A DNA stretch of 64,000 bases, taken from assembly GCF_001424545.1 (NCBI RefSeq), contig NZ_LMQL01000009.1:516822-580821 (forward strand), in the 5' to 3' direction. Origin of the DNA: Ramlibacter sp. Leaf400. Its GTDB lineage: Bacteria > Pseudomonadota > Gammaproteobacteria > Burkholderiales > Burkholderiaceae_C. Shown in pieces: positions 5,881 to 10,826 of this stretch. A program made the translations under genes and the position numbers. Numbering within the stretch: position 1 is the stretch's first letter; each line of letters starts with the position of its first letter. Below the pieces are notes generated by a model that saw nothing but the letters and a program-made list of their open reading frames with translations, searched no databases and was not told the origin of the DNA.

Positions 5881-6543
5881 ATGCCCGCCCCCATCCTCCT
5901 GAACCCCGTCCCGGCGCTCGCGCCGGCGGCCCTGGCCGATGCCTTCGGCCGCGTGGTCACGCCCCACCTGAGCGACAACCTCGACCGCATGGCCGGCATC
6001 ACGGCGCTGCAGCGCTTCCACCGCGGCCGCAAGCTGGTGGGCACCGCCTTCACCGTGAAGACGCGGCCGGGCGACAACCTGGCGATCTACCAGGCCCTGC
6101 CCCTGCTGCAACCGGGGCACGTGCTCGTCATCGACGGCGACGGCGACACCAACAACGCGCTGGTGGGCGACCTCATCCTTTCCTACGCCATCCAGCGCGG
6201 CTGCGCCGGCTTCGTCATCGACGGCGCGGTGCGCGACACGGCCGCCTTCGGGGAAGCCGACTTCCCCTGCTACGCCCGTGGCGTCTCGCACCGCGGCCCC
6301 TACAAGAACGGCCCCGGCGCGCTGAACGTCCCCGTGGCCATCGCCGGCCAGGTGGTGAACCCCGGCGACCTGGTGGTGGGCGACGAGGACGGTGTCGTCA
6401 CCTTCCCGCAGGCCGACGCCCAGCGCCTGCTCGAAGCCGCCCGCCGCAGCGCCGCCAAGGAAGACGCGATCCGCGCCGAGATCCAGACCGGCCGGGTGCA
6501 GCAGAGCTGGCTCGAGCCCTTCCTGCAGCAGCCGGCGCCCTGA
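5881..6543 (+). CDS. RraA-family aldolase (HMG/CHA aldolase-like)
   Basis: 220 residues. The family includes the RNase E inhibitor RraA and class II aldolases that cleave 4-hydroxy-4-methyl-2-oxoglutarate (HMG) or 4-carboxy-4-hydroxy-2-oxoadipate (CHA) to pyruvate plus pyruvate or oxaloacetate. The aldolases are marked by a D-X20-R-D motif that binds the divalent metal and substrate. Here it is complete: D97, then exactly 20 residues, then R118-D119. It is preceded by DGDGDTNNALVG. I therefore read it as a real aldolase. ATG 5881 is preferred over an upstream GTG at 5836 because homology starts here. It leads an operon with an aminotransferase 14 bp downstream. Confidence 0.85.
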   Translation: MPAPILLNPVPALAPAALADAFGRVVTPHLSDNLDRMAGITALQRFHRGRKLVGTAFTVKTRPGDNLAIYQALPLLQPGHVLVIDGDGDTNNALVGDLILSYAIQRGCAGFVIDGAVRDTAAFGEADFPCYARGVSHRGPYKNGPGALNVPVAIAGQVVNPGDLVVGDEDGVVTFPQADAQRLLEAARRSAAKEDAIRAEIQTGRVQQSWLEPFLQQPAP

Positions 6544-6557
6544 TCGCAGCGAACCCC

Positions 6558-7796
6558 ATGACCCAACTGCTCGCCACCCGCCTCGATTCCGTCAAGCCGT
6601 CGCCCAGCATGGCGGCCAAGTCCCACGTCGATGCACTGCGCGCCGCCGGCCGCACCATCATCGACTTCACCATCGGCGAACCCGATTTCCCCACGCCCGC
6701 CCACATCGTCTCGGCCGGCGTCGACGCCCTCACCTCTGGCAAGACCCGCTACACCGGCTCGGCCGGCATCGCGCCGCTGCGCAAGGCCATCGCCGCCAAG
6801 CTGGCGCGCGAGAACGGCCTGGCCTACACGCCCGAGCAGGTCGTGGTGGGCAGCGGCGCCAAGCACGTGATCTTCAACGCGCTGGCGGCGACGCTGAACG
6901 AGGGCGACGAGGTGATCGTGCCCGCACCGTTCTGGGTGTCGTACCCCGACATGGTCGCGCTGCACGGCGGCCGGCCGGTGATCGTCACGGCCGACGAGCG
7001 CACCGGCTTCAAGCTGGTGCCGCAGGCGCTGGAGGGCGCCATCACGCCGCGCACGCGCTGGCTGATCCTCAACTCGCCGAACAACCCGACCGGCGCCGTC
7101 TACTCCGGGCAGGAGCTGAAGGCGCTGTGCGAAGTCCTGCTGCGCCACCCCCACGTGTGGCTGATGACGGACGAGATCTACGAGCACTTCGTCTTCGGCG
7201 GCGTGCGCCACGTCTCTCCCGTCGCGCTGGTGCCCGAGCTGGCGTCCCGCACCCTGGTGGTGAACGGCATGTCCAAGGCCTACGCGATGACCGGCTGGCG
7301 CATCGGCTACGGCGCCGGGCCGCTGCCGCTGGTCAAGGCGATGACGCTGCTGCTCACGCAGAGCACCTCCTGCGCCGCGTCCATGAGCCAGGTCGCCGCG
7401 GTGACCGCGCTGGAAGGCCCGCAGGAGTGCGTGGCCGAGGCGCGCCAGCTGTTCGAGGCCCGCCGCGACCGCATGGTCGAGCTGCTCAACCGCGTGCCCG
7501 GCATCCAGTGCGCGCTGCCCGACGGCGCCTTCTACGTTTTCGCGTCCGTGGCCGGGCTGATCGGCGCCACCACGCCCGCCGGCAAGACGCTGGCCAGCGA
7601 CGTCGATGTGATGATGTACTTCACCGACGTCGCGGGCGTCGCCGCGATCGACGGCACGTCTTATGGCCTGCCCAACCACCTGCGGCTGTCGTTCGCGACC
7701 TCCATCGACCAGATCGAGGCCGGGTGCGCCGTGCTGGCCCGGGCCGTCGAAGCCCTTTCCCTTCCCCATGTCCACGAGGAGACCTCCCATGCGTAA
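6558..7796 (+). CDS. PLP-dependent class I/II aminotransferase
   Basis: 412 residues, fold-type I aspartate-aminotransferase family. Visible motifs are IGEPDFPTP near residue 40, the cofactor-binding turn SGAKHVIF around 100, NSPNNPTGAVY at 172-182, the PLP lysine K240 in NGMSKAYAMTGWRIGYG, and R248 for phosphate/carboxylate contacts. It would exchange an amino acid for a 2-oxo acid. Placement between an HMG/CHA-type aldolase and an amino acid ABC transporter suggests the imported amino acid is deaminated here and the oxo-acid product is cut by the aldolase. Its last 8 bp overlap the start of the binding-protein gene. Confidence 0.92.
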   Translation: MTQLLATRLDSVKPSPSMAAKSHVDALRAAGRTIIDFTIGEPDFPTPAHIVSAGVDALTSGKTRYTGSAGIAPLRKAIAAKLARENGLAYTPEQVVVGSGAKHVIFNALAATLNEGDEVIVPAPFWVSYPDMVALHGGRPVIVTADERTGFKLVPQALEGAITPRTRWLILNSPNNPTGAVYSGQELKALCEVLLRHPHVWLMTDEIYEHFVFGGVRHVSPVALVPELASRTLVVNGMSKAYAMTGWRIGYGAGPLPLVKAMTLLLTQSTSCAASMSQVAAVTALEGPQECVAEARQLFEARRDRMVELLNRVPGIQCALPDGAFYVFASVAGLIGATTPAGKTLASDVDVMMYFTDVAGVAAIDGTSYGLPNHLRLSFATSIDQIEAGCAVLARAVEALSLPHVHEETSHA

Positions 7797-9330: not shown

Positions 9331-10089
9331 ATGGCTGACATCCTCGCCCTCCTGCGCGACTACGGCGTGCTCCTGCTGGTCGGGCAGTACCCGAACGGGC
9401 CGCTCGGCGGCCTGGCCATCACCTTCGTGCTGGCGGTGCTGGGCATCGCGCTGGCCTTCCCGCTGGGGATCGCGCTGGCGCTGGCCCGCGTGAGCCGCTT
9501 CCGGCTGCTCTACTGGCCGGCCACCGCCGTGGTCTACGTGATGCGCGGCGTCCCGCTGATCATGCTGATCTTCTGGGTCTACTTCTTCCTGCCGGTGCTC
9601 CTGGGCCGGCCGGTCAGCGGCTTCAGCACCATGCTGGCGACGCTGGTGATCTACGAAGCCGCGTACCTGGCGGAGATCGTGCGCGCCGGCATCGAGTCGC
9701 TGCCCAGGGGCCAGACGGAAGCGGCCCGCGCCGTGGGCCTGACCTACATGCAGACCATGCGCAAGGTGGTCCTGCCGCAGGCGATCTACAACATGGTGCC
9801 GTCCATGCTCAGCCAGTTCGTCTCCACCATCAAGGAGACCTCGCTGGGCTACGTGATCAGCGTCAACGAGCTGACCTTCGCGGCCAACCAGGTGAACAGC
9901 ACCCTGCTGACCAAGCCCTTCGAGGTGTTCGCGGTGCTGGCGGCCATCTACTTCCTGCTCTGCTTCTCGCTCACCCAGCTGGCCCGCCAGCTCGAAAAAC
10001 GGGTCGCCCGTCGCCGCGCGGGCCAGGGCGCGGGCGCGGGCGCGGCCGCACCCGCCGTACCGCCGCCGATCGCGGCCATCGCCGAATGA
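9331..10089 (+). CDS. Polar amino acid ABC transporter permease 2
   Basis: 252 residues, the second HisM/GlnP-type permease. It has five or so membrane segments (for example [20 protein letters not shown] and a TM after [11 protein letters not shown]) and its own EAA loop, [20 protein letters not shown]. The C terminus is extended by a basic then Ala/Gly/Pro-rich tail (about residues 225-252) not needed for the fold. Its TGA overlaps a possible ATG of the ATPase gene at 10086. Confidence 0.93.
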
Positions 10090-10097
10090 GGAAACCC

Positions 10098-10826
10098 ATG
10101 ATCCAGTTCGAAGGCGTCAACAAGTGGTACGGCAGCTACCACGCGCTGGACGGCATCGACGCCGTCGTCGCCAAGGGGGAAGTGGTGGTCGTGTGCGGGC
10201 CTTCGGGCTCGGGCAAGTCCACCCTGATCCGCACCGTGAACCGGCTGGAGGAGATCCAGAAGGGGCGCATCCTGTTTGACGGCCAGGATATCCACGCCAA
10301 ATCGCTGGACGTCAACAAATTCCGCAGCCACGTCGGCTTCGTGTTCCAGAGCTTCAACCTGTTCCCGCACCTGTCGGTGGCCGAGAACATCATGCTGGCG
10401 CCCACCACCGTGCTGGGCCGCGGCAAGGCGGAGGCGCGCGACCGGGCCGGGCAGCTGCTGGCCCGCGTGGGCCTGGCCGCCAAGGCCGACGCCTACCCCG
10501 GCCAGCTGTCGGGCGGCCAGCAGCAGCGCGTGGCCATCGCCCGCGCCCTGGCCATGGACCCGCCCGCGATGCTGTTCGACGAGCCCACCAGCGCGCTGGA
10601 CCCCGAGATGGTCGGCGAGGTGCTGCAGGTGATGAAGTCGCTGGCCAGGGACGGCATGACGATGATCTGCGTCACCCACGAGATGAATTTCGCGCGCGAG
10701 GTGGCCGACCGCGTGCTGTTCATGGACCAGGGCCGCATCGTGGAGTCGGGCAGCCCCACCGGCTTCTTCGAGAATCCCCAGAGCGAGCGGGCCCGCCGGT
10801 TCCTGGCCGATCTTCGCTCGCACTGA
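10098..10826 (+). CDS. Polar amino acid ABC transporter ATP-binding protein
   Basis: 242 residues, GlnQ/HisP-like. It carries Walker [10 protein letters not shown] at 34-42, the Q-loop segment [13 protein letters not shown], the signature [15 protein letters not shown], Walker [12 protein letters not shown], and the switch His in CVTHEMNFA. Two starts are possible. ATG 10098 has GAGGAA five bases upstream and starts at the usual family position ([12 protein letters not shown]); ATG 10086 overlaps the previous stop and adds four residues. It powers the two permeases. The gene is last in the operon and is followed by a strong intrinsic terminator. Confidence 0.94.

Follow-up and report, generated by a model that had tools for sequence, protein, structure and literature searches.

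Gamma-hydroxylated glutamate analogues are known from plants. The operon described here, which may serve to use such compounds, lies in a 64,000-nt stretch of DNA from Ramlibacter sp. Leaf400 (the whole stretch is referred to as the window) and combines genes for an RraA-family aldolase, an aminotransferase and an ATP-binding cassette (ABC) importer with a divergent LysR-family gene. Several described systems are related to its parts. The aldolase of 4-hydroxy-4-methyl-2-oxoglutarate (HMG) and 4-carboxy-4-hydroxy-2-oxoadipate (CHA), LigK/GalC, has the RraA fold and was solved from P. putida F1 (3NOJ); according to the accessible part of PMC5065237, it carries out the cleavage that is proposed below, with described roles for Arg-123, Asp-124 and Glu-199. 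HMG, a substrate that LigK cleaves, also arises from pyruvate by a chemical route, as stated in the available portion of PMC11951559. FlDet, an RraA-family KDGR dehydratase/decarboxylase, also acts on a 2-oxo acid in catabolism, but its reaction and its substrate are different, and it is 20% identical to the HMG/CHA aldolase (PMC8563752, accessible text). GltIJKL and GltP are uptake systems for glutamate and aspartate, and pxpTABC of C. glutamicum, which serves 5-oxoproline utilization, is likewise a regulated operon of transporter and enzyme genes for a glutamate derivative, as far as the available part of PMC13274462 describes it.

The operon of Ramlibacter sp. Leaf400 resembles these systems in its components and differs from them in other respects. 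Its importer represents a polar amino acid type other than GltIJKL or GltP, with a binding protein that lacks the aspartate for the alpha-amino group. Compared with pxpTABC, in so far as the available part of PMC13274462 shows it, the transporter, the regulator family and the chemistry all differ, and PxpA was not found in the genome of the window. All parts of the operon come from known families, while their combination, the operator and the exchange of importers seem to be undescribed in the literature searched. Among the papers listed by that search, which was judged on titles and abstract openings and covered few subscription journals, none described the operon or bacterial uptake of 4-hydroxy-4-methylglutamate; a search on monatin listed nothing on that compound. 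From the genes and their comparison, we consider that the operon is probably a LysR-controlled catabolic unit for the uptake, transamination and retro-aldol cleavage of an acidic, glutamate-like 4-hydroxy amino acid. If this is true, the operon would give bacteria a route of their own devoted to gamma-hydroxylated glutamate analogues, and no such route was found in the literature searched. Many bacteria hold several vaguely named RraA-family genes, and a branch whose substrate class is fixed by a regulated operon would gain a testable role.

Gene organization of the operon

All coordinates are positions within the window, with plus and minus strands as given. The six genes that had been proposed from an initial inspection of the letters (the sequence-only reading) were all recovered by Pfam and NCBIfam profiles, on the plus strand and at the same positions; these profile checks cover selected genes, and many neighbor genes at the other loci below were named by marker-gene similarity or by eye. 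The first gene (5881-6543, plus) encodes an RraA-family class II pyruvate aldolase (Pfam RraA-like, NF004850) with a predicted retro-aldol function. It is followed by a gene for a class I aminotransferase (AAT) of the aspartate-transaminase-like type (6558-7796, plus), a gene for a periplasmic binding protein (SBP; 7789-8613, plus; Pfam SBP_bac_3) with an N-terminus that looks signal-like by eye, two permease genes, A (8632-9327, plus) and B (9331-10089, plus), and the gene of a GlnQ-type ATPase (10086-10826, plus). Both permeases match BPD_transp_1 and exceed the TIGR01726 cut-off of 42.2 bits (62.6 and 82.3 bits, respectively), and the ATPase matches ABC_tran and reaches 319.5 bits against the GlnQ model, whose cut-off is 379. 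The genes are tightly packed, with a gap of 14 bp between RraA and AAT, an overlap of 8 bp between AAT and SBP, later gaps of 18 and 3 bp, and an overlap of 4 bp at the ATPase gene. The AAT scores 557.7 bits with the aspartate transaminase model NF004769, under the cut-off of 617, and the solved chains closest to it, 6F77 and 6F35, are aspartate aminotransferases.

A LysR-family gene (4829-5758, minus; Pfam LysR_substrate and HTH_1) is divergent from the operon and separated from it by 122 bp. Judged by this gene and by two operator-like boxes (5780-5838) that belong with it, the unit is larger than the sequence-only reading had it.

Conservation of the gene linkage

The absence of this linkage from related genomes had been named as a reason to abandon the sequence-only reading, and it did not occur. 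The complete set, LysR with RraA-AAT-SBP-permease-permease-ATPase, was detected in the window and in eight further copies (L044, L045, L057, L058, L059, L060, L108 and L117; L and G numbers are our handles for loci and genomes), some of them in other families; L045 is from Paraburkholderia fungorum ES3-20, L059 and L060 come from one genome, and L044 and G558 are apparently one genome (match at the same place of contig 18). Among 399 genomes at the order level, RraA matches with E<=1e-55 were found at 37 places in 33 genomes and AAT matches with E<=1e-130 at 31 places in 23 genomes. Six same-strand RraA-AAT neighbor pairs (gap <400 bp) were present in five genomes, one of them that of the window, and each of the four highest-ranking RraA places was paired with an AAT. 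The RraA-AAT linkage exceeds chance. At the family level (349 genomes), eight genomes held an RraA with E<=1e-62, of which five have an adjoining AAT (the window, G558, G665, G723 and G455) and three have a TctC receptor instead (G574, G612 and G586). At the phylum level, 14 of 398 genomes held RraA matches with E<=1e-57, at 16 places, and AAT adjoins three of these (the window, one of three places in G1099, and G1120).

Within the genus, no long RraA match above 51% identity appeared among the matches listed for 36 other genomes, from which we infer that this patchy operon may have moved horizontally. More distant AAT-RraA neighbors do exist in the genus, at L003, L012, L019 and L021 of the 29 loci L002-L030.

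The RraA-family aldolase and its clade

The RraA protein matches Pfam RraA-like with 159.9 bits (cut-off 24.5) and passes NF004850, a subfamily without a function name, with 279.4 bits (cut-off 231). Its residues D97, R118 and D119 align with D102, R123 and D124 of 3NOJ, and N66, G96, K142 and E194 also match, E194 corresponding to the metal ligand E199. By its domain and its metal- and pyruvate-binding residues, it belongs to the RraA-fold class II pyruvate aldolases, and with the equivalents of D102, R123, D124, N71, K147 and E199 all kept, a reaction like that of the HMG/CHA aldolase would be expected. In a comparison of 38 RraA sequences, window included, N66, G96, R118, D119, K142 and E194 are invariant (38/38), whereas position 97 varies, with Asp in 8 sequences, Glu in 24 and Gly in 6. 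The D-X20-R-D motif on which the sequence-only reading relied is therefore complete in this protein but is no group marker, its Asp being present in just 8 of the 38 sequences. The immediate neighbors of the gene are LysR, AAT, the ABC importer and RdgC, not genes of an aromatic pathway as for LigK/GalC, and no gallate/protocatechuate pathway cluster surrounds it. Nine RraA-family matches are present in the genome of Ramlibacter sp. Leaf400 (4.59 Mb).

The tree of these 38 rows, which were chosen from loci with nameable context (L038, L041, L064-L068, L071-L074, L113 and L116, among others, are omitted), places the window RraA in a clade of 15 rows with support of 100/98; L062 is a long-branch row of uncertain place. 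Seven rows of the clade have AAT with an ABC importer of the window type, and three have AAT with a glutamate-type transporter, namely a GltI-type SBP at L107 and L111 and a GltP-type symporter at L114. A GltI-type SBP is also found at L061, an AAT-RraA locus outside the clade. The GltP model is the best match of the L114 symporter, with 555.8 bits, though under the cut-off of 638, and the GltI-type SBPs of L107, L111 and L061 have their best matches at 263.9, 248.5 and 300.2 bits, under the cut-off of 375; no permease genes were recognized beside those of L107 and L111.

One further row of the clade, L046, adjoins an IlvD-like dehydratase gene. At L046:6294-10636 (Burkholderiaceae bacterium 16), an AAT gene stands beside two further RraA-like genes (one recognized by eye), with the IlvD-like dehydratase and TctC genes near; this second AAT-RraA arrangement faces away from the close RraA relative. 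In other sub-branches (L037, L039, L040, L042 and L047-L050), RraA adjoins a D-2-hydroxyacid dehydrogenase gene, and in 5/8 of these loci also TctC. Those RraA proteins may be aldolases of the same kind that receive their substrate from a 2-hydroxy acid rather than an amino acid.

The LysR regulator and its putative operator

The LysR protein of the window is 59% identical to the one adjoining RraA in L107. A window-like LysR lies within 5 kb of RraA at 13 of the 15 clade loci and at 5 of the 23 others; this contrast, like that of the dehydrogenases below, was picked after the tree had been viewed, its rows are not independent, relatedness is not accounted for in the Fisher values, and several loci, including L044, L045 and L059, hold <5 kb on one side.

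A shared box was first spotted by eye in intergenic regions and was afterwards checked with a matrix for which 11 loci, but not the window, were used (L107, L108, L109, L110, L112, L052, L058, L059, L111, L117 and L051). The best score of this matrix in the 64 kb, 31.9 bits, falls on operator-like box 1 (5780-5805, plus; core TATCGCTTTTT at 5787-5797) and the second best, 20.4 bits, on operator-like box 2 (5813-5838, plus; core TATCGCTTTTT at 5820-5830), 33 bp from box 1, while the best other site of the window reaches 16.6 bits when overlaps at the two boxes are set aside. The TATCGCTTTTT core has two matches in the 64 kb with at most one mismatch, where 0.02 would be expected. In the whole genome (4,585,682 bases), the two boxes are the sole matches of WTATCGCTTTTTNT, both at zero and at up to one mismatch, and the reversed WTATCGCTTTTTNT used as control gave 0 and 1 matches. 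The box carries at least 9 of the 10 core bases in 8/11 matrix loci (L107, L108, L109, L110, L112, L052, L058 and L059) and is weak in L111, L117 and L051, where 8/10 core bases are kept and 301, 77 and 123 of 2000 shuffles are equally good; the core used for choosing the sites came from the same loci, so that the per-locus shuffle counts are optimistic and the tests on the window and the genome are cleaner. Among loci outside the matrix set, L044, L060 and L062 score 24.2 to 26.3 and L057 is marginal with 19.2, while L045, L046, L047, L061, L033, L034, L114 and L118 have no convincing box, that is, none scoring above the stray 16.6 of the window. A search of the intergenic regions for near-perfect LysR palindromes found none shared between loci. 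The boxes precede RraA alike in loci with an ABC importer, a GltI-type SBP or TctC, and we interpret them as the putative operator of one orthologous LysR.

The ABC importer and its binding protein

With an SBP_bac_3 protein, two HEQRo-type permeases and a GlnQ-type ATPase, the transporter belongs to the polar amino acid ABC importers. For the modeled structure of the SBP (mean pLDDT, the predicted local distance difference test score, 75.7; five sequences), the best match is the Glu-bound 5EYF (Z 21.4, 222 aligned residues, root mean square deviation 3.4). The model does not single out a ligand; among the 50 matches listed, the lowest of which has Z 17.6, proteins that bind Arg, Orn, Cys, Trp, Lys, Gln or Asp occur at similar scores.

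The SBP sequences were aligned with ArgT, HisJ, GlnH and GltI of E. coli, using the numbering of the lysine-arginine-ornithine-binding protein. In this family, Arg77 presumably holds the alpha-carboxylate and Asp161 the alpha-amino group of the ligand. By the alignment, Arg77 is present in all SBPs, including that of the window. Asp161 is retained in 7/7 comparison proteins (four from E. coli plus the three of GltI type), and the residue directly after the Asp161 position is acidic in 12 of 15 window-type SBPs.

Proposed pathway and alternative explanations

In the pathway that we propose, the ABC importer would take up an acidic glutamate-like compound hydroxylated on C4, possibly in part in a cyclised, pyroglutamate-like form. 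The AAT would then pass the amino group to a keto acid, giving a 4-hydroxy-2-oxo dicarboxylate, which the metal-dependent RraA-family aldolase would split into pyruvate and a second product. 4-Hydroxy-4-methylglutamate would thus yield two pyruvates, and its carboxymethyl analogue pyruvate and oxaloacetate. The sequences show the genes, their order and linkage, the aldolase residues, the shared box and the glutamate-type transporters of some relatives; the reactions, the inducer and the substrate class are all predicted.

Two observations at related loci concern the products. No 2-hydroxyacid (glyoxylate-reductase-like) dehydrogenase gene lies within 5 kb of RraA at any of the 15 clade loci (three of which hold <5 kb on one side), against 10 of the 23 other RraA loci, which mildly favors products that enter metabolism directly, such as two pyruvates. 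In the gene run at L062, importer genes (SBP, permeases and ATPase) are followed by those of a D-amino acid dehydrogenase-like and a Rid protein, then by AAT, a distant RraA (42%), a D-cysteate-lyase-like protein and pyruvate carboxylase, which scores 1715 bits against a cut-off of 965. The latter, a protein of 1194 aa, had been wrongly taken as urea-carboxylase-like before the profile search. Its position beside RraA agrees with pyruvate being a product and makes the decarboxylation of oxaloacetate a less likely purpose.

The sequence-only reading held that an amino acid such as 4-hydroxy-4-methylglutamate is imported, transaminated and cut to pyruvate. What stands of it is that the operon is conserved, that the chemistry fits the complete copies and that Glt-type components replace the importer in four AAT-RraA loci (L107, L111, L061 and L114). 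The specific compound is not favored over other 4-hydroxy acidic amino acids by the sequence data, and the RraA protein scores under the HMG/CHA cut-offs; 4-hydroxy-4-methylglutamate itself is a tentative choice of substrate. A broader interpretation, which is speculative and more doubtful than the operon-level proposal, is that LysR-RraA with the operator box marks a widespread pathway of swappable importers for 4-hydroxy-4-substituted glutamates (plant amino acids and lactams), in which 4-hydroxy-4-methylglutamate would give two pyruvates and the importers and some lactam-opening enzymes would have been recruited independently.

Several results weigh against a pathway for glutamate-like 4-hydroxy amino acids. 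The RraA protein reaches 135.5 of the 304.5 bits required by the LigK model and 141.5 of the 179 required by PRK09262, and Tyr, Pro and Ser take the place of the 3NOJ pocket residues H75, T145 and R195. Just 6 of the 37 RraA places in the order are paired with a strong AAT match, and the AAT linkage is confined to part of the RraA branch. Within the clade itself, four rows (L052, L109, L110 and L112) have a TctC receptor and no AAT within 5 kb, which suggests an aldolase whose use is not restricted to amino acids; some receptors of the TctC type, however, are for glutamate and aspartate, so these loci do not prove a non-amino substrate. Finally, the window SBP has Ser at the Asp161 position (in the alignment, 11 of the 15 window-type SBPs carry Ser there, 3 carry Asn and one carries Thr), which argues against the import of an ordinary amino acid in its free form. 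Given the adjacent acidic residue, a shifted side chain could possibly still contact the amine; if it does not, the SBP may bind a ligand without a free alpha-amino group, such as a lactam.

The missing alpha-amino Asp, together with the retained Arg for the alpha-carboxylate, leads to the explanation that a lactam (pyroglutamate analogue) is imported and that a lactam hydrolase encoded elsewhere opens it to a 4-substituted glutamate before transamination, which we regard as rather unlikely. It would agree with the AAT and RraA genes beside Pxp genes in L033, L034, L043 and L118 and with two Hydantoinase_B genes in the same genome as the window, one in a 1209-aa open reading frame (ORF) and the other preceded by genes for an AAT paralogue and Hydantoinase_A. 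Those hydantoinase/oxoprolinase-type genes lie away from the operon, however, and PxpA (LamB_YcsF) has no match in that genome, the same search being positive in 5/14 genomes as a control; moreover, neither the window operon nor any of its eight complete copies showed a lactam hydrolase, the GltI-type SBPs of related loci retain the Asp, and the RraA proteins of the Pxp loci belong to a different part of the tree. Plain 4-hydroxyglutamate, converted by AAT to 4-hydroxy-2-oxoglutarate and by RraA to pyruvate and glyoxylate, would follow an identical logic of transporter and AAT, and the 10 dehydrogenase loci outside the clade could fit glyoxylate as product (that of L034 scores 240.5 bits with glyoxylate reductase, cut-off 455). 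The lack of such a gene within 5 kb of RraA at the clade loci makes this explanation unlikely. EDA belongs to the KDPG-aldolase family. A further point against an RraA-type enzyme here is that EDA is the named bacterial 4-hydroxy-2-oxoglutarate aldolase (PMC9424857, accessible part).

A 4-hydroxy or 2-oxo acid unrelated to glutamate, with an AAT that recycles nitrogen or runs in the synthetic direction, would account for the loci that combine LysR-RraA and TctC without AAT, and the accessible text of PMC8563752 reports in FlDet an RraA relative with dehydratase/decarboxylase activity. This is very unlikely in our view, because glutamate-type transporters recur beside AAT-RraA and a dedicated importer argues for uptake and breakdown. 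Least probable, and highly improbable as such, is the use of aspartate, by which AAT would form oxaloacetate and RraA would decarboxylate it to pyruvate. The AAT is closest to aspartate transaminases, and Glt-type transporters carry aspartate. The HMG/CHA aldolase decarboxylates oxaloacetate (PMC5065237, available part). These points are opposed by L062, where pyruvate carboxylase, which catalyzes the reverse reaction, stands beside RraA and AAT, although that RraA is distant; by the SBP without the alpha-amino Asp; and by the narrow regulation of the operon, which would be unexpected for so ordinary an amino acid. The uptake, transamination and cleavage of a glutamate-like 4-hydroxy amino acid thus remains the explanation that we prefer.

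Pxp and hydantoinase genes at related loci

At L033, L034 and L043, all from the genus of the window, AAT, RraA and LysR adjoin PxpA, PxpB, PxpC, biotin carboxylase and its carrier, a short-chain dehydrogenase and a related ABC importer (Pfam for L034). Gluconokinase and idonate/gluconate-type dehydrogenase genes lie on the other side, and position 97 of these RraA proteins is Gly. In L118, from another class, RraA, PxpA, PxpB, PxpC, AccC and AAT are found within 20 kb. PxpABC genes thus adjoin AAT-RraA at some related loci. A separate pairing of the same AAT type with the lactam hydrolase type occurs in the genome of Ramlibacter sp. Leaf400 itself, at L080 (C1:14000-33900), where at about 8.2-14.1 kb the gene of an AAT paralogue (53% identical to the window AAT) precedes those of hydantoinase/oxoprolinase A and B and, by eye, of a TctC-like receptor.

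Neighboring genes in the window

A terminator-like hairpin (10866-10883) with a T tail (10866-10893 in all, plus) lies 3' of the ATPase gene; it is a weak sign by itself, since one such site was found in 5700-11050 against a mean of 2.4 in shuffles. The next gene downstream, with a gap of 178 bp, is RdgC, and it is followed by MinC-like, MinD-like and MinE-like genes at 11965-13874, recognized by eye from ORF translations. Two CaiB/BaiF-type CoA-transferase-like ORFs with closely similar N-termini were also noticed by eye, one at 22503-23693 (plus) and the other inside the ORF 17129-19129 (minus).

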